From a virus, in the IMG/VR virus record IMGVR_UViG_3300040808_003255, positions 1 through 54,421 of that record: DNA of 54,421 nt. The stretch is one strand, 5' to 3'. Shown here in pieces: positions 6,647 through 52,400 of the stretch (position 1 is its first letter; every line of letters starts with the position of its first letter). Made by a program: the position numbers and the translations under genes. A model generated the notes under the pieces. It was given only the letters and a program-made list of their open reading frames with translations, was not told where the DNA came from and did no database searches.

Positions 6647-6658
6647 TTGTATCTCCGG

Positions 6659-6687: not shown

Positions 6688-6695
6688 TATTTATA
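6688..6695 (-). promoter_or_regulatory. T4-type late promoter (TATAAATA)
   Basis: The minus strand carries an exact TATAAATA, the T4 late -10 consensus, ending about 40 bases before the first propeller ATG. It overlaps the stop codon of the nucleotidyltransferase-cupin gene, and its position at an operon junction supports it. Confidence 0.6.
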
Positions 6696-7464: not shown

Positions 7465-7480
7465 GGTTTATTTACTCTCC

Positions 7481-10589: not shown

Positions 10590-11025
10590 AATCTTCCACT
10601 GCGTCTGCAAAGTACGTTGTGGTCTTTAAGAAATTGTATGCCTGGGTAAGTTCACTCGGTGCACCTTCTGATGTATCTAACATAAAGCATGGCTCATACC
10701 CTTTCCACATTTGCCCGAAATCTGAATCCATAGGAGCATCTGTAGGTGCAGAACCAATCATCCCAAGCGGCTCAGATCCATTTTCTCTTGCATCTTTTGA
10801 AACATAAACAGTTATGGTTACCTTGGCAAGATATCCCGCCTTCCATTCACGTTCATTATCTGGTCTCTGCTCGCCACCATTTGTCAAGCCATCTTGTCTT
10901 CCGGCATCACGTGGATCTTTAATATCAGCAACCCTTTTTTCCACATCAACTTTGGTTATAATGTGATATGCATTAGGTACCGTAAGTCCGGTATTTTTTA
11001 TTACGAAATCTTGAATTAAAGCCAT
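10588..11025 (-). CDS. Hypothetical structural-region protein
   Basis: A 145-residue soluble protein, MALIQDFVIKNTGLTVPNAYHII at its start, followed by a charged loop with two Arg/Asp-rich turns and a strand AKVTITVYVSKDARENG. The C-terminal part (PSELTQAYNFLKTT) looks helical. I do not recognise a family, although small proteins with this opening occur beside fibre genes in marine T4-like phages. Its ATG overlaps the giant fibre's stop codon by one base (TAATG), so it is probably translated by reinitiation after the fibre. That coupling suggests a fibre assembly or tip-associated role, which is inference. Confidence 0.65.
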   Translation of the reverse strand: MALIQDFVIKNTGLTVPNAYHIITKVDVEKRVADIKDPRDAGRQDGLTNGGEQRPDNEREWKAGYLAKVTITVYVSKDARENGSEPLGMIGSAPTDAPMDSDFGQMWKGYEPCFMLDTSEGAPSELTQAYNFLKTTTYFADAVED

Positions 11026-21863: not shown

Positions 21864-21911
21864 TCGGTTCACTCTCCCCAGTTAGGCTTTAATTAACCAA
21901 TTATTTTAGTT

Positions 21912-34100: not shown

Positions 34101-37100
34101 CACCTTCAGTTAGTTTCCAGTGACCTTTAATAGTAGAGGTAGAATCATCAATTGTTCTAAGATAAGATTCAATAGAGGTAAAGTTATCATCTCTTTCGTT
34201 CATTACCAACAATGAAGCTGAGGACCATGTAGAGTTATTAAATCTTAATTTACCAACACCCGGATCGCCTACAGCAGTACTTGAAGAGAATGTATAGTCA
34301 AATGATACACCACCAAAGCTACCTGAAGGTCCTTGAGGACCTAAGTCACCTTGAACACCCTGAACACCCTGAACACCTTGAGGACCAAGATCAGAAATAT
34401 CCATTTGGCCAACCATTGTGCCATGGAACTGACATTGATAATATAATGTGTCAGGTGCGTCACCAGGAACTTTAAAGAATATTTGTCCTACCTGCGCACC
34501 GTTATTGGTAACACCATTGTTGTACTGGTCACCTGTACCTGTACCTGGATCTGTTTTAATGTAGAATGGGTGGCCCGAAGCATTTACATTAAAGACATAT
34601 GTAAAGCCTCTTAAAAGCCGTAATGTTGGATTGTTGGTTACACCATCAATTTCCCATGCAGAACTTCCATCATTAACAACCTGATATGTTCTGTTGCCTT
34701 CAAGACCTTGGAACCCCTGGAAGCCTTGTGTTCCTTGTGTTCCTTGGAAACCTTGTGGGCCAAAGTCACCTTGGACCCCTTGGTTACCCTGCACACCAGT
34801 ATTACCTTGAACACCCTGTGCTGATTGGACACCTTGAACACCTTGTAAACCTTGGAAACCAAGATCACCTTGAGCACCCTGTATACCTTGTACAGATTGA
34901 GGTCCTTGAGCACCCTGGAATCCCTGAGTACCTTGTATGCCTTGTGTTGCCTGTACGCCTTGTACGCCTTGTGTTCCTTGGTCACCAGTTCTTGTAAATG
35001 TAACTACTACTTCAGGATTGGTTGTAAAGTATGCCGATGTTCCGTTACCAGCAATAAATGTACATCCAACAGTAAAATATGTTGGTACTTCTGACAAGCT
35101 ATCAATTTGGTAAATCACAAAGATTGAAGGATCTACTACCGAAATAACTTTAAAGTAACCTTTGACTCCACTTGTGGAATCATCAATGGTTCTTAAAAAT
35201 GCATCCAAATCATTTCCGGTTGCATCCTCATCTGATATCCGCATATTTGCCGCAGTGGCAAGTACTGCATTATCAAATTTAAGATTACCAGCTAATGGAT
35301 CTGAAACCGCAGTATCAGATAGGAAGTTATATTCAAAGGTCATCCCACCGTAGGCGCCAGTATAGCCTCTAAGGCCTTGTGTACCTTGGATACCTTGAAC
35401 ACCCTGGACACCAGTATCACCCTGGATACCTTGAACACCTTGGATGCCTCGGTTACCTTGGAAACCCTGAGTACCCTGAGAACCTTGAAAGCCTTGGACA
35501 CCCTGGTTACCAGTGAAACCTTGGACACCTGTATCACCTTGAACCCCTTGCGGACCTAATGTACCAGCAGGGATAAAGTTAATAATAGTGCTATTACCAT
35601 ATACATTAGCAGCACCAGTGTTCCAGTTAGTTCCTGGAGAAGCGTCTGTTCCACCTAATAGCGAACTTGCAACCCATTGAACATCAAAATGACCCCAGTC
35701 CTTACCAGTTCCGGTTGGACTCCATGTCCAGTCAAGAATGTTATAGATTACAAATTCGTAATCATCAGTAGATTGATCTTTTAATGTTCTTACAAAAATT
35801 TGACCTTTTGCAGGATTACCAGCAATTGAATCAAGATAATCAAATAGACCATCGACTCTTCTACCAGTTTCTGTAAGATCATCAATGTAGAGTTTATCAG
35901 CTGTTGTAACATTAGTATTGTTAAGTAACCAACTATTTAATCCTGGGAAACCTTCACTAGTTGAAGAATTCCAAATCCAAGTAAATGTTAGACCACCGTT
36001 ATAACCTGTATGTCCCTGGATACCTTGGAAACCATCAAAGCCCTGAATACCAGTATTGCCTTGAACACCTTGAACACCTTGTGGTCCTTGAATACCATCG
36101 AAACCTTGAATACCAGTATCACCTTGGACACCTTGAATACCTTGGTCGCCAGTTCTGATAAACGAAATTCGTACGTCAGTACCATTGGCAAGTGATGCGG
36201 CTGCGCCGATGTTTGTTGTAACATTAAGTACGTGATAACCTGCTGAGGAAGTACCTGTAAGAGAACCACTTACTATTTCGTATACAAAATAATTATATAC
36301 GTTTGTTGCATCAGCAATCTTTAAATAGCCTTTACTATTTGGATTGGATGACTCGTAAAATTCTTGTAGCAGTCCGTGTACGTTAACACCATCTGCATCT
36401 TCAACATCAATATAGAGTTGTGTTGAATCGCCAAATACACCGTCGCTACCTTTAATGATTCCAGCGCCTGGGTCTGTATTTGTAATATCTGTCTGATTAT
36501 ATGTATATCTTAAGCTTACGCCACCGTATTGACCGACGACTCCTTGAATTCCTTGAGTGCCATCATAGCCTTGAATACCAGTATCACCTTGGACACCTTG
36601 TACTCCCTGAACTCCTTGGACACCTTGAAAACCTAATGAACCTTGAATACCCTGTGTTGATTGAACACCTTGGATACCTTGCACACCTTGGTTACCTCTG
36701 ACACCTTGGTTGCCTTGTACTCCCTGGAGACCTTGCACACCTTGGTTACCACGATAACCTCGTGAGCCTTGGATACCTTCTTCACCAATTGTACCTTGAT
36801 TGCCTTGAACACCTTGTACACCTTGGAAACCTTGAACACCTCTAAAGCTACCAATGTTAACCCAAGTACTTCCGTCATAAATCCAAAGTTCATCATCTGC
36901 TTGGTCAATAACACCTTCGCCAAGATTAGCAGATGGGAAAGCAGTATTTAAAGTCGCTTGTGGATCACCACCAGCATCAACATCAGGAACAGACCCTATA
37001 ATAGTAAAACCAGGGCCATAATCGCCCTGAACACCTTGGTTGCCGTCATTACCTTGTATACCTGTGGTACCTTGCGGCCCTGCCCCAAGATCCACCCATG

Positions 37101-37251
37101 CAGTTCCGTTGGAGTATTTTAAATCTCCATTTTCTGCATAAACGATAGCACCTTCAAAGGGTACCGGATCTAAATTGATAGGAAACGCCTGGGGTATTCC
37201 ATGCCCAAGCGTTTGTGATCTTCCTCGTAGTGACTTAAATCTGCTTGCCAT
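31180..37251 (-). CDS. Collagen-like tail fibre with cupredoxin insert and S74 chaperone
   Basis: A 2023-residue fibre. After a ~55-residue head with GAIVYAENGDLKYSNGTAW it alternates collagen-like (Gly-x-Gln)n stretches with four related globular modules (residues ~245-362, 418-560, 635-755, 978-1100), each with GG-x-(S/T)-F-x-Y at the start and a TFxRTGDxG end. A cupredoxin domain (residues ~854-955) has ligands H894, C940, H943 and M946. The longest collagen run is residues ~1100-1525. Then come beta modules and an S74 domain from about residue 1933 (ESDARVKENV, AGVIAQEVEAVLPEVV, YGNMVGLLIEAIKEL). Collagen-like trimers with S74 ends are known phage fibres. Its ATG overlaps the previous stop by one base. 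Confidence 0.88.
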   Translation of the reverse strand: MASRFKSLRGRSQTLGHGIPQAFPINLDPVPFEGAIVYAENGDLKYSNGTAWVDLGAGPQGTTGIQGNDGNQGVQGDYGPGFTIIGSVPDVDAGGDPQATLNTAFPSANLGEGVIDQADDELWIYDGSTWVNIGSFRGVQGFQGVQGVQGNQGTIGEEGIQGSRGYRGNQGVQGLQGVQGNQGVRGNQGVQGIQGVQSTQGIQGSLGFQGVQGVQGVQGVQGDTGIQGYDGTQGIQGVVGQYGGVSLRYTYNQTDITNTDPGAGIIKGSDGVFGDSTQLYIDVEDADGVNVHGLLQEFYESSNPNSKGYLKIADATNVYNYFVYEIVSGSLTGTSSAGYHVLNVTTNIGAAASLANGTDVRISFIRTGDQGIQGVQGDTGIQGFDGIQGPQGVQGVQGNTGIQGFDGFQGIQGHTGYNGGLTFTWIWNSSTSEGFPGLNSWLLNNTNVTTADKLYIDDLTETGRRVDGLFDYLDSIAGNPAKGQIFVRTLKDQSTDDYEFVIYNILDWTWSPTGTGKDWGHFDVQWVASSLLGGTDASPGTNWNTGAANVYGNSTIINFIPAGTLGPQGVQGDTGVQGFTGNQGVQGFQGSQGTQGFQGNRGIQGVQGIQGDTGVQGVQGIQGTQGLRGYTGAYGGMTFEYNFLSDTAVSDPLAGNLKFDNAVLATAANMRISDEDATGNDLDAFLRTIDDSTSGVKGYFKVISVVDPSIFVIYQIDSLSEVPTYFTVGCTFIAGNGTSAYFTTNPEVVVTFTRTGDQGTQGVQGVQATQGIQGTQGFQGAQGPQSVQGIQGAQGDLGFQGLQGVQGVQSAQGVQGNTGVQGNQGVQGDFGPQGFQGTQGTQGFQGFQGLEGNRTYQVVNDGSSAWEIDGVTNNPTLRLLRGFTYVFNVNASGHPFYIKTDPGTGTGDQYNNGVTNNGAQVGQIFFKVPGDAPDTLYYQCQFHGTMVGQMDISDLGPQGVQGVQGVQGDLGPQGPSGSFGGVSFDYTFSSSTAVGDPGVGKLRFNNSTWSSASLLVMNERDDNFTSIESYLRTIDDSTSTIKGHWKLTEGANPQNFALGTISASTEVGSYHVIDITYLSGSITSLPDGTDVRITFARTGDIGDRGVQGPQGTQSVQGLQGPPGEGTQGIQGPQGIQGGGGVQGVQGFVGDPGVQGVQGVQGVQGVQGIVGEGLQGIQGVQGTQGLQGEAGDGVTGLQGLQGSEGQPGIQGPQGIQGVQGDLGIQGFQGNDGGAGLGAQGVQGAQGFQGSDGAQGNEGFQGNDGNQGIQGVQGGFGTGSDGFQGTQGTQGFQGLIGEEGPEGNGTQGLQGFQGTQGVPGFGDPGVQGFQGFQGITGFQGGNGAGDPGTQGIQGVQGVQGVQGIEGDQAIQGTQGPQGVQGRMGVQGLTGNDGGGTQGIQGMQGWQGVQGEEGTVGSGVQGVQGNDGIQGIQGYTGGGIDGFQGMQGMQGEAGENALVSEDGAQGLTGFQGIQGLTGIQGVQGITGIQGAQGIQGTVGVDGEGLQGLQGEAGLQGYDGFQGVQGADGSANAIFVTNIHDQTVAVQSTNMFIPFFDGTAANPRDLYATIGPNPGSDSNFYYQSSVDELNVENIHTYDKITVDGSVDIDSSTATINLVDNAKLFFGTGDDFEMYFDGTDMNAAFNNSNFTMNFRNTADTVTASLSGEGNLVVNDITVNGTVTGIDSGPSGGFDISVEDENYWTISAGSMTFTTVSAVSGLAPTDTVPTGTPIVTMNGSGTGARSLEYTIPVNFVGSDKLVFWSNKGGGGWGDSPEAGEDLKLYAKNTGDASWIDLGVISGVADVSNVWYKKELEIATLQTIASTAVIFDSPAGVEIKIQQDNASGDNFDNWAFTSFTVAPAGGGGGLDPATAIQLNDNVNLELGTGSDYDLFFDGSHLNFDTANDSYDIKFGVAGSAKFTMNMGTGDFTATGDIISESDARVKENVQTIENALDKVNAMRGVTFTKINSDDGRTHAGVIAQEVEAVLPEVVSEKDDGMKSVAYGNMVGLLIEAIKELKGEVEDLKSE
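32675..33950 (-). repeat. Long collagen-like coding repeat (Gly-x-Gln/Gly-x-x triplets)
   Basis: About 420 residues are almost continuous Gly-x-y triplets, most of the form GVQGxQGxQ. At the base level this is a 9-base quasi-repeat (plus-strand ACACCTTGA-like). The repetition also opens long spurious frames on both strands. Length change by recombination or slippage is plausible here. Confidence 0.85.
34390..34695 (-). other. Cupredoxin domain with type-1 Cu ligands, copy in collagen-like fibre
   Basis: His (codon 34570-34572, SGHPFYIK) is followed 46 residues later by Cys (34432-34434), then His at +3 and Met at +6 (CQFHGTM). The ligand spacing is the same as in the 860-residue fibre. The domain sits between two collagen-like stretches. 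Confidence 0.72.
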
Positions 37252-37673
37252 CAGACATCATCCTCTTCCGATTGGCCAAGGGTGAATGATAGAGTACAAT
37301 CTACGTGTAGGTTTTTATCTGCTTTTATCTCCAATGTATCACCGGATTTAAAGAATTGTCCGTTGATAGGAATAGGAATTGTATCATATGAAGGAACTGG
37401 TAAATTTCTTAAAATGTACCATGAATCGTTTTCGACATATCTATATGCCTTAAGATCAACATATGCAGTATTTGCAGTTGTGTTGCAGAGAATGAGTGGT
37501 GAGATAACTTCACCAACTCCAGGCTCGACAGTCGTAGATCCACCAAACACAAGTTCTGGAACCTCGTAGTTAGGAACATCGATAAGTATTTGCCAGTTTG
37601 TGGTCAACGTTTTGTTCACATATACCGGTTTGGCGTCCGGTGCCTGTGTTGTTGTAATAGTTGTAATAGTCAT
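37251..37673 (-). CDS. Small beta-rich virion-region protein
   Basis: A 140-residue protein beginning MTITTITTTQAPDAKPVYVN, followed by TLTTNWQILIDVPNYEVPE and several alternating strands (VISPLILCNTTANTAYVDLK, DTIPIPINGQFFKSGDTLEI). The pattern predicts a beta sandwich. The acidic C-terminus is EEDDV. It overlaps the stop of the 3382-residue gene by one base (TAATG) and the start of the collagen-like fibre by a few bases, so three genes are coupled. No known family is recognised; a small head, tail or fibre connector is possible. Confidence 0.65.
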   Translation of the reverse strand: MTITTITTTQAPDAKPVYVNKTLTTNWQILIDVPNYEVPELVFGGSTTVEPGVGEVISPLILCNTTANTAYVDLKAYRYVENDSWYILRNLPVPSYDTIPIPINGQFFKSGDTLEIKADKNLHVDCTLSFTLGQSEEDDV

Positions 37674-40600
37674 TATACGATCGCCCTACTGTTGGATGCT
37701 CTTCTTGCGAGTTTTCTTACTGATGATGTAAACGGCCTACCTTCAATTCGCCCTGTTCTACCATTAATCCTCAATCCTCTAGCGAAGTATTGGTTGTTCA
37801 ATTCGTCAGCACCTGACCAACGAACTCTACCACCATCTTCAGAGAGAACAGAAGCCAAGGCCGAAATCGGAAGACCAATGTTTCTAAAGTTTAGAGGCAA
37901 TGCCGTTCTATTTACACCAGCGGATGCACCGTTAAACTGGTGGGCAATAGATTCAACCAACGAACCGAATTGCAATGTGTTAGGTCTTAAAACATTTCCA
38001 AGTATAATATCATTAAACAGGCCATTAATCATTGTGTTTTCGTCCGCTCCCCCATTCAAATTAGTTGTAATATAATCTCTCATTTTTTCCCATGATTTAT
38101 AAAATGCATATAAGAGTTGATCATTGTTAGCACCATCATTAACCCAGATTGTTCCGTTCCAATAATATACTGTTCCTGAATATCTGTTTGTGTTGTTATC
38201 TGTTGGTACTATGTAAGCATCATTCCTCTTAGTTTCATTAGTATCAACATTATTTATATCAGTAGTGGTGCCCTTAAAGTTCAATCCTCTCGTTGTTGGA
38301 TTAAATACAGGGAATACATGAGTACCGTCATAATTAAAGAATGAAGCAACAAATGTTCTTGTAGCTTTAGACGAACCTTTACCTTCAATTCCACCATAGC
38401 CTGGTGCACTAGTAATTGCTGTATTAATGAATCTGAAATCATTAGCAATAGTATATAACAAGTTTAGAGAATCACGTCTTGTTAGATTTATATCTATGAA
38501 ATTATATTCTGAATTTACAAATCTTACAATCTCTGACTGCAATACTCTTCTCTTTGCAACCAAAATGTCTCTTGAGAACTTATGAACACCATCGGCTGCA
38601 TAATCAAAATCAGGTAAATCAAGTGCCGGTAATCTCTTAGTATCATTATTTAGGAGTGTTTCATACAAGATATTAGCAAGATATTTGACCTTAGTTCCTT
38701 CGACTGAACTTGCAACTTCTTCAACCACCACCGCTTCTGGGTCTTTACCTAAAACAATGGCTTCACAAATTTCACCAAGCTGACGATATGCTTTTGCAGT
38801 TGGAATTCTTTGATTCTCAGGAAGTCTTAAAATGTTATTCCAGTAGTAGAAATCTGCATTCCATCTTGTAGCTGCATTACCGCCATAGTTAAGGTCAAAG
38901 CTGAATGCAGGGATGATGTACTGTTGAACATCTCTGCGACACTTAGCTTTATTATAATCAAGAACCGTAAACTCTTCTCTGAGCCATTCTTGAACATCAT
39001 CAGCCAACATATCTTTATTATTGTCAATAGCGTCTGCTGCCCATATTTTACTTGCCTCGACCCATGAAAGATCAGGTTCAACAAGTTCAGGAATTACCGC
39101 AGTACTGTCTGCTCTAATTACGTCCTCAACTATTCCGATAAGATTTTTAACTTCAAGTGCAGTAGCACCATCTGATGGTTCATAAGTAAAGTCTTGGCCT
39201 GCGCCAGTATTAGCCTCAAGAACAATATCAGACATAAGATTACCCATTTCAAGATAAACATCTGCTGTTTGTATTCTTGTATCAACAGGTAAAACACTAA
39301 TTCCGTTTTCAAAGTAAATTTGAGCAGATATTCTTGAAGCATGGTTTGTCTGATAGTTAATATCATGTGAAACCGCATCAACAAGATAACCCATATCTCT
39401 GCGACATTTATCTCTTGGGAAACTCAAGCCATTGTATTCAGTTGAGATATATGAAATCATATTTTCTACAAGAGTGACTGTATTGTCCTCAATAAGATCT
39501 TTTGAAGCAACAAAGTGATCATCAACCCAAGTAATAATAGGATCAATTCTTTGTGGGATATTAGATGGATCTTCATCATCAGCGATTGAGGAAATAATCC
39601 AAGCCAAATCTCTAGCTTCGGTTGCAATCTCAGGTTTTGCAGGGTTTGCACCAGGCAGACCCATAAGATCAGGAACCAATGTATTTTTACCAGATGGAGT
39701 AACTGTTTCACGTTTAATCAGTTTTTCAATTACCTCACCGAGATGAGCAAATGCTCTTCTTGTAGGTTCTCTTTGATCTCTATCCAAAACATTAACTGCA
39801 TTTTTAAAGTAAATTTCAGCACAGCCATGAATTGCCGCATTACCACCATATTGAATATCGTGTGAGATAGCATCAACAATGTAACCAGTGTCTCTCCGAC
39901 ATTTATCTTCATCATACTCTAGGAAGTTATATTTTTCATTTAGGAATGGAACAATGTCAGCTTGAATTTTAGACTTAAGATCATTATTGATTGTGTTATA
40001 TGCATTTTGGAATTCCAAATCGTAGCCTGTAGCATTTACACCTGCAGCATCAATATTTGTTACCGCTGGTAATTCTCTCAAGCTATCCGCTGTAATCACA
40101 TCCGAAACAATTTCAAACAGAGCCTGTACATTATCACCAACGGCCGCAGTGGTTGCACCGAATGAAACTGTATCTTGAGTTTCAGCATTACCTGCACTTT
40201 TGGTTACTGGTTGTTTAAGTACCAATTGTTCTGCCACTTCAGCAAGCCGTACAAAGGCAGCCGCAGTTGGAGCTTTTTGATCATCTGGAAGAACACTTAC
40301 TGCATTTTCAAAATACAGTCTAGCAACATCACGGATACCTGTATTGGTATTATGTCTGATATCATATGTTACAGCATCCACCATATAACCTACATCACGG
40401 TAACATTTATTTTGGTCATATGTCAATCCTGCAAAGTTAATTCCAAGCCAGGCAAGTACCTCAGCCTGCATGAATGTTCTGTTTGCAATTAAGCCTTGAG
40501 CAGCATTAAGGTTCGATGTACTTGCGTTTGCAGATCCAAAGACATATGCAGGAGCAGCATCAACACCGTCAGTAAGGACATCAAATAGAGCAGTGAATGA

Positions 40601-43600
40601 AGCTTTTGATCTATCTAGTGCGTTACCAGTAATCCCGTCCTCAATCTTTCTTTGAACAAACTTAAAGCCTTCGATTGTTTCTGATAATTGATCGTCAATA
40701 ACCTTATCAGCACCTAAAGTACCAATACGATATGCCCGACCTGCATAAACAGAATTATAATTACTACCAGTAAGAATATCTCTAGCAATAGCATCTACAA
40801 TGTAACCAGCATCTCTGGCACATTTGCCTTCCTCGAAGGTAAAGAATACATCGTTGATATATGAAACTATTTCTTCTTGTAGGAAAGGTTTATTTCTCTG
40901 AATAATGTTTCTAGCAAATGTTCTCTTCGGCTCATATGTTGGAGCACCAGAGATTGCAGGAAGATCGGAAGGTTCTTTATATTCATCAATTGCATTAGCA
41001 ATAATGAGTACCAAATCCTTGGCTGCCTGTGCGGTTGTTGCATCAGCGGCAATTCCATCTACATTTTGATATGGACCTTCACTGATTGCATTAGCAACAG
41101 CAGAGATAAATGTGTGTGCATATTGCCCTGTACCACCAGTCCCTACATTCATTGTAATGGAGGTTCCTGTTACACCAGTAATTGTAACCGGTTTTCTCCA
41201 GAAAGGATGGTGAGCTTGAGGTGCAGTTGATTGCTGTGGGCCACTTCCTGCATCACATTCGAATGTAAAGCCTTCGTCCTTAAGATAAACTGTTTCACCA
41301 ACTCTAAGTGAGTGTGATCCGATGGTTGCAGTAAATACACCTGTTGCAGGATCATAAGTGGCGCCTGTTGGAGTGTATTGAGTATATGATGGGGTGACAG
41401 CAATTTCTTGAGCAATATCAGAAATAACATCTGCCATATGGAGGTAAGCTTGTTTTGTAGGCTCACGTTGATCCTTAGGCAGTGTATTGATAGACTTGAT
41501 ATAATCAATATAATTTGTTTCGTTACTGTTTGTATCCAATGTAGAAGCAGGTCTTGTCTGCTTTTCTGGATAAGCTTCACTCAGTTCAAGTGCTGCCTCA
41601 AAGTATTCTTTAACTGCAGTAATTGTAGCTTCATTACCACCGTATTCCATATCTTGAGCAATGGCATCAACAATATAACCCACATCACGTGAGCATTTTT
41701 CTTGATTATATGATAGTCCGTTATATGTTTCTGAAATAAAGTTCAGAATTTCAAACCCATATTTTTCTCTAACACCATTAATATATTCATATGCTTCCTG
41801 TTCAGCAACAGCAGCAGTAACAGTTGGTTCCTCATATGCAGGAAGATCTGCAAATTCATCACCACGGATCATGTCAGATACAATGGCAAATAGATCCTGT
41901 GTCCGTTGAGAAATACTCAGAGCAGAATCCTTAATTGCATCAGTAGTTGCCGAGATAAATGTATGAGCACCAGTGTAACCATTTGCATCACCGACATCAA
42001 GTGTGATAGATGTTGAGGTAACAGATCTAATTGGAACTGCCTGGTCATAAATTGGATCGGTTGCTCTTGGATGCGAAATCTGTTGAGCAGGTGAACCACA
42101 TTCCCAAGTAATACTTTCCAAACCAAAGGTAACTCTATCACCAGCCACAAAGTTATGAGCACCAATGGTGACTTCCATAATTCCAGTAACTGGATCATAT
42201 GTTCCGCCAGTTGGAGTAAATCCTCCTGGAACAGTCACATCAGCATTCTCTGGGTTGGTATTTGTTTTTACAACTGGTTGACCTCTGACAATTCTTCCAG
42301 CAAGTGCAGCAATTCTTTCAAACACTTCAGCTGTAATTATCTTTTGTGCTTCCGGTAATACACTTACTGCATTGTCAAAGTAAAGTCTTGCATTATTTAC
42401 AGCCGCAGTATTTGAACCGTGTTGAATGTCGAATGAAATTGAGTCAACAAGATATCCTACATCTCTTTCACATTTGGCAACATCATATGAGAAGGCAGGG
42501 TAATTGGCCGCAAGCCAGGCTGTTGCCTCTGCTTGAAGGAATGCCTTATTGGTTTGCAATGCAATTCTAGCATTTGTGTGACCAGTACTTACGGTAGGTG
42601 TTCCAAATGTAATTGCGTCGGCATTACCTTGACCAGCATTCATAATGTCAATGATTTCATCAAATGCAGTATTTGATCTTGTGAGTGCAGTACCAGTAAG
42701 ATTGGCACCAATTTCACCTTTTAACCAGGTAATAGCACCAACTGTTTCTGTAAGTTGGTCAGTTATTACAAGATCACCGCTTGATGTTCCAGCACGGTAA
42801 GCCAGTCCAGCAAACACTGAGCTGAAATTAGACCCTGTCAGTACATCTCTTTTGACTGCATCAAGAATAAGCGCCGTATCACGTGAGCATTTTGCGCCGT
42901 CATATGTGAAATAATTATTGTTTAAATACCCAACAACTTCATCTTTGATGAGCTGTTTATTTGCCAACAATTGTCTTCCTGTAAGTACACCGCCTTTTGT
43001 CGCTTGGGTGTGTATAACACTACCAGCAGAAGCACTTTCAAATGTATGTGCACCTGAGTAACCAGCGGCACCAGAGTTAAATGTAATTCCAGTAGCTGTA
43101 GTCGAGGTAATTTCAATAGGCACACCATAGTTTGGCTCACCTATCCGTGGATTTGAAATATATTCTGTTGGCGATCCACAAGACCAAGTAAGGCCATAAG
43201 GTGCAATTTCAACAAAATCACCGGTTTCAATAGCATGTGTTCCGATTTCAAGAGTTGTGACACCAGTGACTGGATCATATGTACCATTGGTTGGTGTATG
43301 AGTTTCAATTACCTTAGCAGGATCACTCCAGTAAATTGCATCAACATTAACAGCACCTGTTTCAGCACTTACAAATGTGTGAGTACCAGTGTAACCATTA
43401 GCATTTCCAACATATACTTTAATTGTTGAGCCATCCACATCATGAATTCTTACTGGAGTCTGATATGGGCCCTCAGTAGGTCTTGGGTGTGTAATTGTTA
43501 CTGGGTTTGAGTTGGCATCAAGACATGAGAATGTAATGCTGCCAGGTTTAAATTGAATCCAGTCACCTTGCTTAAGGTTGTGTTGGCCAATTGTAACAAC

Positions 43601-46600
43601 CATTTCACCATTTACAGGATCATATGTTGATGTTATAGGAGTATAGGAACCTGTATATGTTGCCAATTTAAATGAATCAGCATCGGCACTCACCAGAGTG
43701 TGCGCACCAGTGTATCCACCCGCGTCACCAACGTTCATTGTAATAGTTGTGTTGGTAACCTCAACAATTGTTTGTGGTGTTCTATACGCTGGATCTGACG
43801 GTCTTGGATGTGTAATTTGCACCGCAGGTGAGCCACATTCCCATGTCATGCTTTCATCGGCAATCAATATTTGTTGACCAACCTGAAGATCATGTGTACC
43901 AATAGTAACTTCCATGACTCCAGTTGTTGGGTCGTATACGGCACCTAGTGGTGTATATACTCTGCCGGCATTTTCCATAATGCTGACAACTTCATTAAAT
44001 GCATTATTTACTCTTTGAATAGATTCTGCGTCAGTTAAAACCGTATTTGCAACTTGATCTTTAAGATGTCTAATTGCTCCGGCAGTCTGTGTTAATTGGC
44101 TTCCGACAACTTCACTAGCAGTTGCTGTATAATAAGCAACACCAGATTGAATTGAGTTGAAGTTTGTGCCGAGGAGCATATCACGCTCTACAGCAGGTAA
44201 GATATATTCAATTGTGTCACGGCGACACTTATCACTATCGTATAGGAAATAGTTATCATCAATCCAGTTTAACATATAATCCTGTATATAGGTTCTGTTA
44301 GCCTGAAGTTGTTTTCTGGCATTTCTATTTACAGCTGGGATTGAAGCATCATTGCTATAAGTAATTTCCGAACCTACAACCGAGATACATTTTTTGGTTG
44401 ATCTTTCAAACTTATGTCTAAAGTTAGTAGAAGTACCTACGAACACTGTAAACCCAGTCACAGTTACTGCTGTAATAGGCAATGGTCGTTGGTAAGCAAC
44501 TTTATCAGTAGGTCTTGGATGTGCAAGTTCTGTTACAAAATCATCATCCTCACATGTAAAGATCATGCTACCTGGATCAATAACTATTCTTGTTCCTACA
44601 GTCAAGTCATGGAAACCAATTGTTACTGTCATGGAACCAGTGACTGGATTATAAGTTGCATCTACTGGAGTATATTTACGTCCAGCATTATTTAAAATGT
44701 CAACAATCTCATTGATTGAATCCGAGGCACCAACTTCACCAGCAGATGAGTTGGCCGATAGTAGATCCGCGGTTTGAGTTCTTAATCTTTGATAAGCAGA
44801 AACCGTTTCATTTCTTTGTTCACCAATAACTTTTCTGGCAGTATTCATATAGTATGCATTGCCAGCAGTTACCGCATTGTAGTTTGTGTCCAACAGCATA
44901 TCATATTTTGCTGCAGGTAAGATATAGTCCTGAATATCTCTGCGACACTTGTTGCTATCGTAAGCATAGAACTGATCGTTATCTTCAATCCAATCAATAA
45001 ACTTTTCAGTAATATGATCTGTATTGTTCATCAGAAGCTTACGTGCTGCGGTTCTGGAAACAACACCAGTATCTTCAAATACCAGTGGAGCCGCATAGTC
45101 TTCGCCGTTTTCAAGAATATCCAGTGTTGCATTGAACGAAGTATTTGCTCTTTCCAGAACTGATACATCTGAATTTCTAAACAGGTAGTCAACTTCATCT
45201 TTCAGATGTCTAATTGAACCTGCAGTCTCATTTAACTGTTCACCATATACACGTTGTGAAATTGGGCTACGATATGTAAGGCCGTTTAAGCGACCCCAGT
45301 AGTTTGTGTTTAATGCAACATCATAACCTACACTATCAATGATAATGCCCGTGTCACGCTTACATTTATCTGAATCATATTCCTGTAGACCTAACCCACC
45401 GTTTGCAGTGTTTGCCGTGAGATAGTCAACCATATCCTCAATGATATCTGTTGCTCTATTTTCAATCGAATCCGCAAAGTCAGTATTGCCAACCAGATTT
45501 GCAGTTGTATCTTGTGGAGCAAAGATTGTAGTACTACCTTTTGCTCTCATTGAAATATCACCAAACTGAGTACCTGAGTTGTTCAGTGTCATTTGACCAC
45601 CGTTCAGAGCATAGAATGCTACACGAACAAAGATTGACAATGAACCAATACCGTTTACACCAGCACCATCACGTGCAACGTAACCGATACCGTTTTGGGT
45701 ACGAGGTGTAGCACCAAATGCAAGGAAGTAAGTATAAAGTGAGTCAGTATCTAGCTGTCGTCTATCCGCAAGAATTACACCGCCACCGCGGCCAACCAAT
45801 GGGTTAGGGAAATCATCAATACCCAATGCATTGACTTGACCAGTACCACCGGATTGCGCATAGACATAATCACCAACTTCTACTGTGCCTTTTAAGTTCC
45901 GAACAAAGATTTTATTGTTGGTTGCAAGATCAGGATCTATGCCCTTGGCAGTATCTAGTGAATCATCCCATGAAAGGAATCCATAAGCGCCATTTGAGAA
46001 TGTAACCTCATCGCCTTCATTAAACTCACCAGAATGGCCAACCTCCAAGATAACTTCTTGACCTAGATCGGCAACAGTACCTTTTGAGTTAAATGGCTGC
46101 AATGGTGGCTCGACATCTAGTCGATTAAAGTTTGAAAGCTGAGATGAGTCACGCACATATGGTGAACGTAAGATTTTTGCACCAGGGCGATATGCATAAG
46201 CAAATCCGCCTTCAGGGTAATCAAAGTTATCTACTTTCCAGTTGAAGAATGAGAAACCTTGAGCATAACAACCAGAACCTAGTAGGAAACAGTTCTCAGA
46301 TTCATAACCAGGTAATGCTTGGATAACAGTTGCGTATTGACCAGATGTTGATGTAATCGAACAATCGTCAGGTAATTTAATATTACCTTTTGTATAGTGG
46401 GTACCTGGCCCAACCGAGATATGAACTGCATCATTTAAACCGTTTCTGTTAAATGAACCCCCCGCTTTTTCAAGTGCCAGTTCCGCAGCTCTTTCCAAAG
46501 TACCAACTGGTTGTAAAATGGTACCTGGTGCGTCATCATCACCATCAATGGCAACATGGACCTTGAGTGCTTTTTCTGTTTTTCTAGCAATCTCGTCAAA

Positions 46601-47821
46601 GAATTGTCTATATGAAATCTTTTCAGTTTCATCAGTTTTGACATTTTTAATGGCGAAGTAACTGTCTTCGTCCATATTTGGTTCCCACTGTTTGGTGAGT
46701 TCCATATCAAAGTCTTTGATTTCACTATCAAGAATTTTTGAATTTCTTATTACAACATTATCAAGATCAAGATCTTCAATAACTGAATTCGCAATTGTTG
46801 AATCCTCAATCCGACCTTGGAAAGTTGATTCAGTAATACCTGTATTCGATGCAGAGGAGCTTGTAATTACAGCATCATTAATTGTTACGTCATTCAGACC
46901 ACCTTGGAAATCTGTATTAGCAATTACAGAATTCTGAATTAAACTATTATCGATGGTTGAGTTTGTAAGTGTTACATTATTACCCGTGCCGTCATTAAAT
47001 TCAGAGCTTGTGATAACAATGTTATTTGCATTTGAATTTGTAATAGTACCTGCAGTAAATGTTGACTCACCAATCTGTGCGTTGGTAATTGCACCATTTG
47101 CAAAATTTGTATCAACAATTTCACTGTTTGAAATAATTACATCTTCAAGTGTTAATCCGTCAATCTGTACGTTTGTAAGAATAGTACCGTTCGCAACACC
47201 ACCTTCAATGGTAGGGTTGTTAAAGAATGAATCATCAATACGAGAATTTGTAAATACATCATTATTACCAGTACCGTTACTAAAATCAGAACTAGTAATT
47301 AAAATATTATTTGCATTTGAATTAATTACATCACCAGCATCGAATACTGAATCTGTAATATAACTCGATGTTACATTAGATTGGTCAAGGACCGAAGCTG
47401 TGATGTCGAGGTTGTTACCCGATGAGTTGGTGAGTTCACCAGCATCGAATACTGAATCTGTGATCTGAAGATTGGCGCCAGTTGAATCTGTTAACTGACC
47501 GTCATCAAATGTGGATCTAGCGATGTCACCATCATTGAAGTCTGATCTTGCAATAACTGATCTATCAATGTCACCAGCAATAAAATCGGATGTATTGATA
47601 GTCACATTATTCAAGGTAGAGTTAGACATTACAACATTAGCAATTGTCCCACCCGTGATTCGGATACGAGAAAATTGCTCGTATTGAATAGCCTCTACAA
47701 GTTCTCTTCTGGTGATGTTTTTAGTACCGTCATCACCTTGTACTAGATTTACAATAACAAAAAGATCTTCAGTTCTAGTATTAGCACCGGTAATAGGACC
47801 TAATTCTGAAATCTTTGACAT
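37673..47821 (-). CDS. Very large modular virion protein with Cys-helical and beta modules
   Basis: The 3382-residue protein has three regions. Residues ~40-375 are short repeats such as ITSSxFxxGxGNN and TNSxIxxSxF, a beta-helix or pentapeptide-like stretch. Residues ~420-770 resemble a pectate-lyase-like region (VHVAIDGDDDAPGT, HISVGPGTHY). From ~800 to ~3140, about 150-residue helical modules recur around KCxRDxGYIVDAIxxDI-x-x-G-x-N (11 copies plus one degenerate). Six are followed or preceded by ~100-residue beta modules with YDPVTG, VTIGxH, HPRPTDP and GYTGAHTF. Related repeats occur in virion proteins of marine T4-like phages, without a known function. No enzyme site or S74 end is seen. 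A late-promoter-like CATAAATA precedes it. Confidence 0.8.
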   Translation of the reverse strand: MSKISELGPITGANTRTEDLFVIVNLVQGDDGTKNITRRELVEAIQYEQFSRIRITGGTIANVVMSNSTLNNVTINTSDFIAGDIDRSVIARSDFNDGDIARSTFDDGQLTDSTGANLQITDSVFDAGELTNSSGNNLDITASVLDQSNVTSSYITDSVFDAGDVINSNANNILITSSDFSNGTGNNDVFTNSRIDDSFFNNPTIEGGVANGTILTNVQIDGLTLEDVIISNSEIVDTNFANGAITNAQIGESTFTAGTITNSNANNIVITSSEFNDGTGNNVTLTNSTIDNSLIQNSVIANTDFQGGLNDVTINDAVITSSSASNTGITESTFQGRIEDSTIANSVIEDLDLDNVVIRNSKILDSEIKDFDMELTKQWEPNMDEDSYFAIKNVKTDETEKISYRQFFDEIARKTEKALKVHVAIDGDDDAPGTILQPVGTLERAAELALEKAGGSFNRNGLNDAVHISVGPGTHYTKGNIKLPDDCSITSTSGQYATVIQALPGYESENCFLLGSGCYAQGFSFFNWKVDNFDYPEGGFAYAYRPGAKILRSPYVRDSSQLSNFNRLDVEPPLQPFNSKGTVADLGQEVILEVGHSGEFNEGDEVTFSNGAYGFLSWDDSLDTAKGIDPDLATNNKIFVRNLKGTVEVGDYVYAQSGGTGQVNALGIDDFPNPLVGRGGGVILADRRQLDTDSLYTYFLAFGATPRTQNGIGYVARDGAGVNGIGSLSIFVRVAFYALNGGQMTLNNSGTQFGDISMRAKGSTTIFAPQDTTANLVGNTDFADSIENRATDIIEDMVDYLTANTANGGLGLQEYDSDKCKRDTGIIIDSVGYDVALNTNYWGRLNGLTYRSPISQRVYGEQLNETAGSIRHLKDEVDYLFRNSDVSVLERANTSFNATLDILENGEDYAAPLVFEDTGVVSRTAARKLLMNNTDHITEKFIDWIEDNDQFYAYDSNKCRRDIQDYILPAAKYDMLLDTNYNAVTAGNAYYMNTARKVIGEQRNETVSAYQRLRTQTADLLSANSSAGEVGASDSINEIVDILNNAGRKYTPVDATYNPVTGSMTVTIGFHDLTVGTRIVIDPGSMIFTCEDDDFVTELAHPRPTDKVAYQRPLPITAVTVTGFTVFVGTSTNFRHKFERSTKKCISVVGSEITYSNDASIPAVNRNARKQLQANRTYIQDYMLNWIDDNYFLYDSDKCRRDTIEYILPAVERDMLLGTNFNSIQSGVAYYTATASEVVGSQLTQTAGAIRHLKDQVANTVLTDAESIQRVNNAFNEVVSIMENAGRVYTPLGAVYDPTTGVMEVTIGTHDLQVGQQILIADESMTWECGSPAVQITHPRPSDPAYRTPQTIVEVTNTTITMNVGDAGGYTGAHTLVSADADSFKLATYTGSYTPITSTYDPVNGEMVVTIGQHNLKQGDWIQFKPGSITFSCLDANSNPVTITHPRPTEGPYQTPVRIHDVDGSTIKVYVGNANGYTGTHTFVSAETGAVNVDAIYWSDPAKVIETHTPTNGTYDPVTGVTTLEIGTHAIETGDFVEIAPYGLTWSCGSPTEYISNPRIGEPNYGVPIEITSTTATGITFNSGAAGYSGAHTFESASAGSVIHTQATKGGVLTGRQLLANKQLIKDEVVGYLNNNYFTYDGAKCSRDTALILDAVKRDVLTGSNFSSVFAGLAYRAGTSSGDLVITDQLTETVGAITWLKGEIGANLTGTALTRSNTAFDEIIDIMNAGQGNADAITFGTPTVSTGHTNARIALQTNKAFLQAEATAWLAANYPAFSYDVAKCERDVGYLVDSISFDIQHGSNTAAVNNARLYFDNAVSVLPEAQKIITAEVFERIAALAGRIVRGQPVVKTNTNPENADVTVPGGFTPTGGTYDPVTGIMEVTIGAHNFVAGDRVTFGLESITWECGSPAQQISHPRATDPIYDQAVPIRSVTSTSITLDVGDANGYTGAHTFISATTDAIKDSALSISQRTQDLFAIVSDMIRGDEFADLPAYEEPTVTAAVAEQEAYEYINGVREKYGFEILNFISETYNGLSYNQEKCSRDVGYIVDAIAQDMEYGGNEATITAVKEYFEAALELSEAYPEKQTRPASTLDTNSNETNYIDYIKSINTLPKDQREPTKQAYLHMADVISDIAQEIAVTPSYTQYTPTGATYDPATGVFTATIGSHSLRVGETVYLKDEGFTFECDAGSGPQQSTAPQAHHPFWRKPVTITGVTGTSITMNVGTGGTGQYAHTFISAVANAISEGPYQNVDGIAADATTAQAAKDLVLIIANAIDEYKEPSDLPAISGAPTYEPKRTFARNIIQRNKPFLQEEIVSYINDVFFTFEEGKCARDAGYIVDAIARDILTGSNYNSVYAGRAYRIGTLGADKVIDDQLSETIEGFKFVQRKIEDGITGNALDRSKASFTALFDVLTDGVDAAPAYVFGSANASTSNLNAAQGLIANRTFMQAEVLAWLGINFAGLTYDQNKCYRDVGYMVDAVTYDIRHNTNTGIRDVARLYFENAVSVLPDDQKAPTAAAFVRLAEVAEQLVLKQPVTKSAGNAETQDTVSFGATTAAVGDNVQALFEIVSDVITADSLRELPAVTNIDAAGVNATGYDLEFQNAYNTINNDLKSKIQADIVPFLNEKYNFLEYDEDKCRRDTGYIVDAISHDIQYGGNAAIHGCAEIYFKNAVNVLDRDQREPTRRAFAHLGEVIEKLIKRETVTPSGKNTLVPDLMGLPGANPAKPEIATEARDLAWIISSIADDEDPSNIPQRIDPIITWVDDHFVASKDLIEDNTVTLVENMISYISTEYNGLSFPRDKCRRDMGYLVDAVSHDINYQTNHASRISAQIYFENGISVLPVDTRIQTADVYLEMGNLMSDIVLEANTGAGQDFTYEPSDGATALEVKNLIGIVEDVIRADSTAVIPELVEPDLSWVEASKIWAADAIDNNKDMLADDVQEWLREEFTVLDYNKAKCRRDVQQYIIPAFSFDLNYGGNAATRWNADFYYWNNILRLPENQRIPTAKAYRQLGEICEAIVLGKDPEAVVVEEVASSVEGTKVKYLANILYETLLNNDTKRLPALDLPDFDYAADGVHKFSRDILVAKRRVLQSEIVRFVNSEYNFIDINLTRRDSLNLLYTIANDFRFINTAITSAPGYGGIEGKGSSKATRTFVASFFNYDGTHVFPVFNPTTRGLNFKGTTTDINNVDTNETKRNDAYIVPTDNNTNRYSGTVYYWNGTIWVNDGANNDQLLYAFYKSWEKMRDYITTNLNGGADENTMINGLFNDIILGNVLRPNTLQFGSLVESIAHQFNGASAGVNRTALPLNFRNIGLPISALASVLSEDGGRVRWSGADELNNQYFARGLRINGRTGRIEGRPFTSSVRKLARRASNSRAIV
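38440..45480 (-). repeat. ~12 Cys-containing helical modules (KCxRD type)
   Basis: The motif occurs near residues 820, 957, 1198, 1645, 1783, 2043, 2335, 2473, 2641, 2808 and 2961, with a degenerate LTRRD copy near 3115. A leading helix (ANRxFIQxEVxxWI) precedes each. Two flavours exist. One continues GTN-x5-AG-x-AYY...LxETxGAI; the other continues GGNxAxxxxAxxYFxNAVxVLPxxQ. Confidence 0.8.
41050..44680 (-). repeat. Six beta modules (YDPVTG...GYTGAHTF)
   Basis: Copies begin near 44675, 43960, 43645, 43300, 42215 and 41375. Each shows (Y/F)TPxxxxYDPVTGxMxVTIGxH at its head, a W/F-x-C Cys strand near the middle, HPRPTDP-x-Y, and an end like GYTGAHTFxSA. The second, third and fourth are nearly back to back. 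Confidence 0.75.
46700..47680 (-). repeat. Beta-helix-like short repeats at the N-terminus
   Basis: About 330 residues of short repeats, mostly pairs such as ITDSVFDAGELTNSSGNN and ITSSEFNDGTGNNVTLTNS, with Asn, Ser, Thr, Ile and Phe at recurring positions. The period is near 10 or 20 residues. This suggests a right-handed beta helix or pentapeptide-like stack. Confidence 0.6.
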
Positions 47822-47867: not shown

Positions 47868-49268
47868 TTATTTATCACAAGCGCACTTACATGAATTTTT
47901 TTCTAATTTTTCAATTTTAGTACTTAACTCTTTTATCGCTTCGACCAGCACAGGAACAATATTACCATATGCAACATTCTTATATTTATCGCTATCTTCT
48001 GTAATCACCTGAGGTAAAATGGCTTCTAATTCTTGAGCAATAAAACCAATTTTTTCCTCTGTGTCTCCAATTTTATTATAGGAGACACCTCTCATTTGAT
48101 TAACTTTATCTAATGAATCCGAAAGATCCTTAATATTTTCCTTGACACGTTTATCAGAAAGTGTTATAAGGTCACCACCGGCCTGTATATTGCCGGTCGC
48201 CGTTACAGAACTAGCATTAAAAGTGCCGTCAATATCAATGTTACCAGTATTGCCTTCAAGTGTGATTTTAACATTATCACTGGTGTTTTCCAATTCAATA
48301 TTGGCTCCATTCCGAACCCGTAATTTATTTCCAATAGTGCCATCTTCATTGACAGTAGTATTAAGACCTGAAGTAATAGTACCCTCTACGTTGAAGGATG
48401 TTTTACCACTGTCTGTCCCTAAACCATTTGTTGCCTGGTAAAAAGAAGCACCAGCTACTGTAGGTGTGCCAGACAGATCATCTTTTAGAATAAAATCAAC
48501 ACGGCGATCTGTAGATCTTTCCTCACCGTGGATATACATCATTACATGACCATTATTTTCAAAAATTGTCTGGCCGTTTCTTGCACCAGACTCCGACATG
48601 TGATCAAAACGTATTCTTGTATCTGCATCACCTTGGTGAGAAACTTGTCGAGGCACCACAATATCCAAACCAGTGCCGTCATATGACTGTCCAGCAGATA
48701 TTTCAATTTGATTATTCGCATCTGGTCCAGTGAAAACAATATTATCACCAGCCTTAAATGCACCATGTGCAATATCTACTACAGAACCACTAGCACCCAA
48801 TGTTGTGTTGCCAGTGACCTCAAGATCAGTTAAGGTAAGTTTACCATTTGGAGAAAGTTTAAACGGTGTGGTTGTAGATGTTTTAATAACAAAATTAGCA
48901 TCAGTATTATTATCTAGGCCGATGTCCCAGTTAAAAACATTATTTGTAAATCTTGCCTGACCACCACTTGCTCCATATGCAAAAATAGCGGTAACCTTTT
49001 GGCCCGAGCTAAATTCACCAGGTTGTGAAAATGTAATATTTGCAGCAGTATTTGCAGCCGCAAAAGTATCTGATGATATGGTGCCGGTTGCCTCAAAATT
49101 GGTTGCGGTAAAATCCCCAATAAGGATGGCGTCACCCGTGGTGGTATCACCAGCCGGGGTTGCAGTCACAATTTCCGTTTTCAGGATATCAATAACATCG
49201 TTGGTTTTATCAAACCAATTCTGAAACGTTTGTGACGTTTGTAAATTTGTAATTCCAGGTTTAGCCAT
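47868..49268 (-). CDS. Tail fibre protein with S74 chaperone domain
   Basis: A 466-residue fibre. The N-terminal part is helical (QTSQTFQNWFDKTNDVIDIL), probably the attachment end. The middle is beta-rich with fibre-type turns (LTLTDLEVTGNTTLGASG, RVDFILKDDLSG, GNIDIDGTFNAS). From about residue 371 there is a peptidase S74 domain with LSDKRVKENI, the partner strand MRGVSYNKIG, IGFIAQELEAILPQVI and AYGNIVPVLVEAIKEL, then a short coiled coil and a Cys-rich tail (CKCACDK). Self-cleavage before the conserved Ser would release the chaperone from the trimer. Its start overlaps the small coiled-coil gene by eight bases, so coupling is likely. Confidence 0.85.
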   Translation of the reverse strand: MAKPGITNLQTSQTFQNWFDKTNDVIDILKTEIVTATPAGDTTTGDAILIGDFTATNFEATGTISSDTFAAANTAANITFSQPGEFSSGQKVTAIFAYGASGGQARFTNNVFNWDIGLDNNTDANFVIKTSTTTPFKLSPNGKLTLTDLEVTGNTTLGASGSVVDIAHGAFKAGDNIVFTGPDANNQIEISAGQSYDGTGLDIVVPRQVSHQGDADTRIRFDHMSESGARNGQTIFENNGHVMMYIHGEERSTDRRVDFILKDDLSGTPTVAGASFYQATNGLGTDSGKTSFNVEGTITSGLNTTVNEDGTIGNKLRVRNGANIELENTSDNVKITLEGNTGNIDIDGTFNASSVTATGNIQAGGDLITLSDKRVKENIKDLSDSLDKVNQMRGVSYNKIGDTEEKIGFIAQELEAILPQVITEDSDKYKNVAYGNIVPVLVEAIKELSTKIEKLEKNSCKCACDK

Positions 49269-49452
49269 GTTTATGCTTCTTTTCCAGTGCGTCTATTCTT
49301 TCGCAGATCCTAAGTAGAGTCGATTTAATTTCAGAAACATCATCCTGAAGTCTATCAACACGCTTGTAATAAAGCCTTTCCGTTTTATATTTATTCAAAG
49401 CTTCAAGGTCGGTGCTGATAATCGCTCTACTATTCGGATCTCTTTGTATCAT
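49261..49452 (-). CDS. Small coiled-coil protein before an S74 fibre
   Basis: A 63-residue protein beginning MIQRDPNSRAIISTDLEALN and followed by a heptad-like helix (VDRLQDDVSEIKSTLLRI, CERIDALEKKHK). It starts inside the end of the DUF4815-like gene with an ATGA overlap and ends inside the start of the S74 fibre, so the three genes are tightly coupled. A small assembly or fibre-attachment factor is possible; no family is recognised with confidence. Confidence 0.65.
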   Translation of the reverse strand: MIQRDPNSRAIISTDLEALNKYKTERLYYKRVDRLQDDVSEIKSTLLRICERIDALEKKHKHG

Positions 49453-52400
49453 GTTAATGCTATTCCTCTATAATCTCTCAACGATGGTGCATTATAAGCA
49501 GTCGAGGAAAGCATTTCAATTTTTACTGCAAATCTTCTATATCCTGTAAAGGTTCCAGCATCACTAGTATATTCCAAAGCCCCATCGGCATTTTTAGCTG
49601 AGTCAGGAACTGCAAATTTAAATTCCTTATAATCTTCTATATTTACCTTAGATGAGAATATATTCTTACCTTCGATAATTTCAAGTTCGATCCAATCAAT
49701 ATTCTCAAAACCTTCACTGTCATAAACATTCTGAGGTTTGATATAACATTTAATATCAGTACCTTGAGGTCTATATCCAGTAATAATAAGTTGGAAATCC
49801 TCAGCATCAAAGCTTTCAGCAAGTTCAACTCTCTTTGAGATATACTTAGCTGTAGTACTTGAGCTGTTTGTAATTTTCCATTGATATGCAATGAGTTTTG
49901 ATAACTCAACATCAACAAGCGGCGATGATGTATTTGAGCCAGCCTGTTTTTTCATATCAACAATAATTTCAAATTTCTTAGTATCCGTCAAGTCATTTGA
50001 TTTACTGTAAATCACTGCTCCGGATTTGGAGAAGTAATTGTTACTATTAAATTTTAATTGTTGTTCGTAGTAAGTATTAACATCATTGGGTGAAGTGAAA
50101 CGACCCGTCAACGATGTAGAGGTCGTACCATCATTGGTTCTATTAATGAATGGTTGTATATAGCTTATGTTAATATCATCGATGGAAGCCGTATTAGCTT
50201 GCGACCCAGACGAAAGTCCGTATAAGAATACACCTTGGTCAAACTTTCTACCTTCTCTTGCAGAACTGCCTTCGAGGTACATTTCACCTGGGTTTCTTTT
50301 ATCATAGTGCGATAATTTACCAGAAACAACAGGCAGACCAGAGCTTGATACAAAATCATATGGTGTCTGTTTGTGGGCGACCATTCTTGTAGCCGACGTA
50401 ATGTCTGTAATTCTGAAAATGTCCTTATTAGTTGAATCGTTAATAAGAATCTCATCATTAATTGCATATGTCGTATCAAGTCCGGACCCTGTAATTACAT
50501 TATTGCCGACTTCCATTGATACCACATTACTTGTTCCAACAGCAGGATCTTTTAATTGGTAAACATCTTCGTTAAAGTTAAATCTTCCTGAGATATCATT
50601 TACAGATAGGAATTCATGATCATTATTCTTAAGACGGATGAAACCTTGATTCTCGTCAAAGCTGTGTCGTCTCAGTTCAAATTTAACATCTTCGTCCTGA
50701 TATGATTTCCATGCACGGTTATTGGTAGACGTAAAGAGAACACCGTCTCCCCAGTCCTGCACAATTGTTTGGCCTTGAGTATCACCAGGTGATAAATCAA
50801 GTCCACCTACCTTTGATGTATAGATTAAATAATCTGGATCATTCCCATCTGGCATTACAACAAATGCATATTCTCTTTCTGAATAGAGTCTTATTGGAGC
50901 CTCAAATTGGAATGTAGTAGCTGCAGAAGCATCATCAGAAACATTTACTTGATCTTTTGTATAGTGAACTTTCGAGAAAGGAATAATATTACCAGAAGGG
51001 TATCCATTATCTGTTTCACTCAAGTATAGAGTAATACCATTCACCTCTGATTTACGCTTGAAGTACACATCAAGTTCGGATACAAGCAATGATTCACCGC
51101 CCTCGACCATACCTTTCTTAATATAGAAGGTTTGTGCAAGAGGGTCGCCTTGCCGTGGGAAGGTAACTGACCTAGCCACAACTGTCTCGTTTAAATTAAA
51201 CTCTGGTTCCCTTGTAGAAAGTTCAGTTTTCTCTATTGAGAAATTATATGCTCTATATGTAAGAGAAGTAGAGGATGTTGCAGCCGAATCAATAGAATTA
51301 TATTGATCTACATCTACGACCTTAAGAATTCTATCACCCACAAAGAATGTTGCTTCTGGTATATTAAATACTGCTCTCAGAACACCTCTGGAATCTGTTT
51401 TAAGCCCGGCAGTACCAATCGGATCACCGAATGTTTCAATCTCACCTGGACTATCTGCTGCGGTGCCTGGAACAATATGAGCATTCACATCTACACCATC
51501 AAAGAAGAAATAATGATTTGTATCTGGTCTTAGACCGCCAACCCAAACCTTAAGTTCTCTTGCAGCAATGAATGGATTGAATTCCACATTGGTAACAAAA
51601 TCTCCAACTTGTTCTGCAGCACTTCCGACTTCAAGTGTAGAAAATGTATCGTCAACGATTACAGTACCACCGGCTCTGCCAAATGTGTTTACTGCAATAC
51701 CTTCTTCTGTGAGAACATCCGTAAGAGGTAAGAATTCTTGTAGGTTGTCTACAAAGTCTTCAAACATTGATGCAGTATCAATTGTTAATGGATCTGGGTT
51801 TTGAGTAAAATCGTATGCAATATCATATTCTGGTGATAGTCCTCCCAGTCCATTATAGGCATAATAGTTACTCACACAATTTCTAAATTCAGTAGCATAC
51901 GGCTGATTAAGAACCGTAAGGTTTGAATCCCTTCCTAGTGTCATTACATTAGGATTATTCGTCGGTGGAAATAATTGTGCTCCAGTAGCAGATGAATATT
52001 TAAGATCCAATGCAAACTGTTTAACAGCTGGAGTCAATATTTTTTGGTTGTGCAAGATTGCAGCATTATATTCGGGGTCAGCTATTTCAGCAAATGTAAG
52101 ATCATTAAATGGATCTACAACAAAACCATTTTTAAATCTGGTTCTACCATTTTCGTCAAGTATCGAAAGATTCTGAGTTGAGCTTTCAAGTTGACTTAAT
52201 GATATGTAATAGTTTAAAGAGTTAACCTTATCATCAATTCGTTTGATGTCCTGCATTTTATAACCCTTGTGGGATTTTTTAATAACAGAGACACCATATG
52301 GCCGCATTCCTTTTGCAAGTGCTTCCGCCGGTGTTAAGGCCGGAGAACCTGGAATTTTGACTTCTGCCAAAACCATTTGATCTGGAGATAATGACGGGGG

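Follow-up and report, generated by a model that had tools for sequence, protein, structure and literature searches.

What are the repeated helical modules that make up the body of a giant fibre-type virus protein? The question is raised by IMG/VR virus record IMGVR_UViG_3300040808_003255, a 54,421-base virus fragment that was analysed over its whole length (the window), and in which a minus-strand open reading frame (ORF) with an ATG start, at 37673..47821, encodes 3382 amino acids. A pentapeptide-repeat N-terminus, a region at residues 381–780 and a conserved C-terminal domain accompany the 12 helical and six beta modules of the protein. A previous interpretation, made from the letters alone (the sequence-only reading), had described a giant virion protein of fibre or baseplate type with two repeat families and kin in marine T4-like phages, and this description was supported here; its module counts and coordinates were right, the strand being minus. 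That interpretation knew of no described fold for the helical module. As judged from sequence, we consider it close to certain that the helical modules are homologous to phycobiliproteins. The single best explanation, to which we give an even chance, is that the protein is a virion fibre carrying putative bilin on these phycobiliprotein-like modules.

Relatives of the module were gathered from viral contigs, the modules were cut out using a hidden Markov model (HMM), and 66 diverse ones were combined into a profile, A6. When A6 was compared to all PDB sequences, the best match was phycocyanin alpha (E = 2.9e-5), all of the best 60 hits listed were phycobiliproteins, and the conserved Cys of the module fell on the bilin Cys. 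Pfam family PF00502 matched 18 of the 66 single modules at a relaxed cut (three at E < 0.001, the best at 8.5e-8), and no other Pfam family matched more than one of them. Alignment of the modules with 11 phycobiliproteins from cyanobacterial plasmids using hhalign gave 96.0% (E = 4.5e-9, 102 columns), compared to 0.1% for a beta module as control. With a phycobiliprotein HMM, 229 of 879 modules scored above 10 bits, versus none when they were shuffled and one when they were reversed. A Pfam scan of the whole 3382-residue protein gave no match for the helical modules, and a search of the window with PF00502 by itself came up empty even at E = 10. Since PF00502 is blind on the window, yet the family profiles match, the phycobiliprotein relation is visible only through family profiles. 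Through the profile match, the module joins a characterised domain whose structure is known, the phycobiliprotein or bilin-binding globin; this is the outcome that the sequence-only reading itself had named as refuting it, and the claim that the fold is undescribed is not supported. The alignment starts at phycobiliprotein residue ~33–39 (33 with hhalign); for the N-terminal helical hairpin, helices of the preceding module could stand in. In the literature searched, which left most subscription papers outside, we found no earlier report of a link between phage modules and phycobiliproteins.

An AlphaFold model of modules 4–5 plus a beta module, calculated from an alignment of phage sequences only, had a predicted local distance difference test score (pLDDT) of 85.7 and a predicted template modelling (TM) score of 0.77. 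Comparison of the modules 4–5 model to the PDB with Foldseek yielded smURFP (TM score to target 0.74, 2.8 Å, 134 columns), the bilin domain of ApcE (0.68, 2.2 Å) and CpcA (0.61), and phycobiliprotein-fold matches overall had TM scores to target of 0.54–0.74 with a probability of ~1.0. The Foldseek E-values were modest, from 0.05 to 0.6, and fused haemoglobins were among the best matches, as is expected of a globin-type fold. A previous, weaker model of six modules, based on 27 sequences (pLDDT 66), gave noisy best matches in which the phycobiliprotein lead was already present. The helical module is predicted by these models to have the globin-type phycobiliprotein fold. For the beta module, sequence searches yielded no relative with a solved structure, and none of the fold matches could be trusted.

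Like phycobiliproteins (PF00502; CpcA, ApcE, smURFP), the modules would share the globin-type fold over the helix B to E region, and they have the K83-C84-x-R86-D87 motif, Asn47 (71%) and Gly at 102 (68%). Unlike phycobiliproteins, which have ~162 residues, the module unit has ~137 residues, and 12 units stand in tandem inside a phage protein of 3000+ residues. The motif that the sequence-only reading wrote as KCxRD aligns with the phycobiliprotein bilin-attachment motif C84-x-R86-D87. Among modules 1–11 of 51 distinct 12-module orthologues (n = 561), K83 was found in 86%, C84 in 100% (561/561), R86 in 99.8% and D87 in 100%; in module 12, the Cys was replaced by Thr in 51/51. The Cys that had been called invariant is therefore so in modules 1–11, but not in module 12. 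R93 and Y97, which are invariant in the 11 aligned phycobiliproteins, are lost in the phage modules: the R93 position is Asp in 78% and Pro in 19%, and the Y97 position is Tyr in only 19%. We take these two residues to form the alpha–beta subunit interface of phycobiliproteins, and by this measure the modules do not resemble light-harvesting phycobilisome subunits. Retention of the attachment triad alongside loss of R93 and Y97 indicates that the triad is under constraint while the interface positions are free. CXRD is also the motif that bears the chromophore Cys in BBAG-1/-3, as it does in phycobiliproteins (PMC10151467). BBAG-1/-3, which we liken to the modules by description and not by sequence, are bilin-binding globins outside the phycobilisome; unlike the modules, they are single-domain cellular proteins within bilin gene clusters.

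The sequence-only reading amounts to a novel helical fold with a Cys that could mark disulphides, metal binding or a packing site, and it suggested two ancestral units that were shuffled. Two helical flavours do exist, and the beta modules, too, hold one Cys each. Most of the module stretches (475 of 561) hold a single Cys with no conserved partner, and a survey of the module columns revealed no second conserved metal ligand and no conserved His; a disulphide or metal site was accordingly rejected, the Cys aligning with the bilin-attachment Cys84. Against the novel fold stand the homology and fold match to phycobiliproteins, as well as the fixed order and number of the modules, and we consider it very improbable.

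The order and number of modules were compared in 59 full-length ORFs, defined by the presence of both the 381–780 region and the C-terminal domain. Exactly 12 helical modules were present in 58 of the 59. The beta modules in the 51 distinct 12-module orthologues numbered 3–12 and were confined to gaps 2, 3, 5, 6, 7, 9 and 10. (These 51 and 59 are related sequences, so the counts do not represent independent events.) Identity between helical modules of different orthologues was 60% at the same index, compared to 32% at different indices, and the best match had the same index in 64–100% of pairs, with the minimum at the middle modules. Because the helical number is fixed at 12 and the order is kept, shuffling of the helical series was rejected; only the beta modules differ in number and place. 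The exception, on the 77-kb contig L094, has 10 helical modules and no beta modules; genes for heme oxygenase and bilin reductase lie side by side on the same contig. In contig L155, a stop splits the giant ORF (L155:2-4954 and 4958-7468), with four helical modules before it and five after; a sequencing error, a pseudogene or a real split are possible. Related giant ORFs in contigs L053, L058, L069 and L039 have 18–20 tandem beta modules and few helical ones, and the beta arrays differ strongly in length.

Both repeat families are real, with self-similarity far above chance: residues 1610–1860 match residues 2300–2560 at E = 1e-78, and beta modules match each other at E-values as low as 9e-36. 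The two flavours, A and B, also differ in spacing, with ~139 residues to the next module after A and 150–170 after B. All of the following features are on the minus strand. Modules 1 (45086..45496, KCKRD, Cys820; weak PF00502 match, E = 0.052 over 6–111), 2 (44669..45079, KCRRD, Cys959), 3 (43949..44359, KCRRD, Cys1199), 4 (42611..43021, KCSRD, Cys1645; weak PF00502 match, E = 0.18) and 7 (40544..40954, KCARD, Cys2334) are of flavour A. Flavour B comprises modules 5 (42194..42604, KCERD, Cys1784), 6 (41417..41827, KCSRD, Cys2043, with an insertion), 8 (40127..40537, KCYRD, Cys2473), 9 (39623..40033, KCRRD, Cys2641), 10 (39128..39538, KCRRD, Cys2806) and 11 (38663..39073, KCRRD, Cys2961). Module 12 (38204..38614) has LTRRD, with Thr at residue 3114 and the Arg and Asp retained; TxRD occurs in all orthologues. 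The six beta modules start at residues 1057, 1296, 1400, 1515, 1875 and 2156 and are located in gap 2 (44384..44662), gap 3 (43670..43942, 43349..43633 and 43016..43291), gap 5 (41930..42211) and gap 6 (41084..41368). The structure model covers helical modules 4 and 5 and the fifth beta module. The beta-helix-like N-terminus proposed previously was borne out as a pentapeptide-repeat region at residues ~46–380 (46682..47686), matched by PF13599 (Pentapeptide_4) at E = 2.9e-13 and 50.1 bits against a cut-off of 38, with the best stretch at 216–282. The region at ~381–780 (45482..46681), which had been labelled pectin-lyase-like, had no relative among PDB sequences, leaving that label unconfirmed; it is conserved, with matches in orthologues, and is a candidate right-handed beta-helix. 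The C-terminal domain, residues 3251–3382 (37676..38071), is present in 86 ORFs, and also occurs within S-PM2 p091.

In the arrangement that we propose, 12 globin modules of phycobiliprotein kinship, constant in number and order, would stand in tandem as the body of a tail-fibre or baseplate-linked virion protein, and the beta modules between some of them would act as variable spacers or adhesive domains. Modules 1–11 would bind bilin or another open-chain tetrapyrrole, probably through a thioether to the Cys. The bilin would come from the host or be made by phage-encoded heme oxygenase and bilin reductase; in cyanophages, the phage CpeT would perhaps load it onto the modules. The pigment may serve mainly as a structural cofactor that stiffens the fibre; light-dependent behaviour is possible. 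A cpeT (lyase-like) gene is located less than ~2 kb upstream of the module-bearing fibre gene, on the same strand, in seven of nine cyanophages examined (S-PM2, ACG-2014h, Syn1, S-RSM4, Sf-CH1b, S-CAM3 and AG-345-P14), and in the module-bearing non-cyanophage contigs G001 and G011, a heme oxygenase gene adjoins one for a bilin reductase.

The host of the window's phage is probably a heterotrophic proteobacterium, as suggested by the scarcity of psbA in module-bearing records (one of 20, the S-RIM8 cyanophage itself) and by sequence kinship: G001 and G003, both encoding 12-module orthologues, have capsid proteins nearest to those of Methylophilales and Sinorhizobium phages (63–67%), and the VrlC-like protein of the window is nearest to that of Sinorhizobium phages (34%). 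Contigs L169, L170 and L171, from an assembly named “Rhodobacteraceae Water_Bin34”, each encode a different 12-module protein, and could be binned phage contigs or a hint of the host.

Several observations weigh against bilin attachment. The modules of the window, scanned singly, are below the Pfam cut-off for PF00502. Asp98, a Tyr (column 64) and Thr80 are near-invariant in the phage modules and not in the aligned phycobiliproteins, and the conserved residue set could be a structural network. The cpeT adjacency is absent in P-HM2 and S-SCSM2R, and where present it may be inherited synteny. Bilin genes are absent from most module-bearing contigs. Conversely, a heme oxygenase–bilin reductase pair is present in Pelagibacter phage Mosig without modules, S-CREM2 has a bilin lyase with no modules found in its long fibre or gp122, and modules were present on only one of 14 long bilin-reductase contigs, all of which are fragments, so that this count has low power. 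Given Mosig and these contigs, we claim no strict linkage between bilin genes and modules.

The main rival is a bilin-free scaffold, in which modules of phycobiliprotein-globin descent have lost the pigment, and Cys, Arg and Asp belong to a structural network of polar residues within a stiff helical stalk. It would account for near-invariant polar residues peculiar to the phage modules, among which is also Asn104, for module 12 retaining the Arg and Asp without the Cys in 51/51, and for the many module-bearing phages that have no bilin genes and group close to heterotroph phages. Structurally, however, it is hard to explain why a partnerless Cys is found in 561/561 modules in spite of only ~30% identity between modules of one protein, and with the interface residues lost. 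We consider this scaffold a substantial possibility, with a chance clearly short of even. The pocket could also hold another ligand, such as heme, non-covalent biliverdin, a metal or a host molecule, via Cys, Arg and Asp. The predicted globin fold, the non-canonical conserved residues and the variation in bilin specificity among BBAG relatives (PMC10151467) are consistent with such a ligand; the survey described above, with usually one Cys, no conserved His and no second metal ligand, argues against it, and we regard it as improbable. Bilin carried on modules 1–11 is the reading that we prefer.

The ORF itself is very probably a fibre or baseplate virion protein. In reading order, the cluster consists of a VrlC-like baseplate-region protein, a 63-residue ORF, a tail fibre, the giant ORF, a 140-residue ORF and a collagen-like fibre, all of the annotated members being on the minus strand, and this order partly resembles S-PM2 p087–p091. 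The VrlC-like protein (49449..54421; phrog_358, E = 6e-224), which is cut by the contig end, corresponds to S-PM2 p087 and is nearest to that of Sinorhizobium phiM12. The adjoining fibres both carry a Peptidase_S74 chaperone (47868..49268, PF13884, E = 1.4e-16; and 31180..37251, PF13884, E = 2.2e-18), the latter being collagen-like (PF01391, E = 2.1e-89). Whole-protein profile matches to the giant ORF were obtained from PHROG 701, 5342 and 4527, annotated as virion structural or tail fiber, without a fold or a phycobiliprotein link. The same helical modules, several with beta modules, occur in cyanophage virion proteins S-SM1_102 (T4-GC969), P-SSM4 gp7 (T4-GC397), S-PM2 p091 (T4-GC830) and a “short tail fiber” (T4-GC734), which also sit in baseplate or fibre gene clusters. 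S-SM1_102, with three helical modules, was found in purified S-SM1 virions by mass spectrometry (PMC3037559). P-SSM4 gp7, S-RIM8 gp160, S-PM2 p091 and several “short tail fiber” proteins have 3–8 helical modules each, compared to the fixed 12, and the cyanophage proteins are annotated merely as structural, baseplate or fibre.

In S-PM2 (NC_006820), RefSeq sets sixteen tRNA genes inside an open module-bearing fibre gene, S-PM2t009 (165928-177267). The fibre cluster of the window includes a second giant ORF of 3615 residues with a GTG start (11025-21872) and a cytidylyltransferase-like domain fused to a mannose-6-phosphate isomerase-type cupin (6691-7464). An 860-residue fibre-type protein at 21921-24503 matches the Pfam Copper-bind family (plastocyanin/azurin) above cut-off, at 24.8 bits.

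From these results, a predicted fold can be assigned to some of the largest marine virion proteins that lack annotation, and the bilin-binding globin family is extended to viruses. A benefit to the host antenna has been assigned to phage bilin genes (ho1/hemO, pebS, pcyA/pcyX and cpeT) without direct proof, and their purpose in alphaproteobacterial phages is openly termed speculative (PMC11480375). Virion proteins with a preserved bilin-attachment triad are a possible target for those genes inside the phage. It is a rather unlikely but tenable idea that marine T4-like phages, those of heterotrophs included, would have fibres with up to eleven covalent bilins per chain, and that phage heme oxygenase, bilin reductases and CpeT would partly serve to pigment the virion instead of the host antenna. 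With the pigment-attachment site kept in eleven of the twelve modules, the virus particle may be pigmented, and the pigment genes of phages may be useful within the phage itself.

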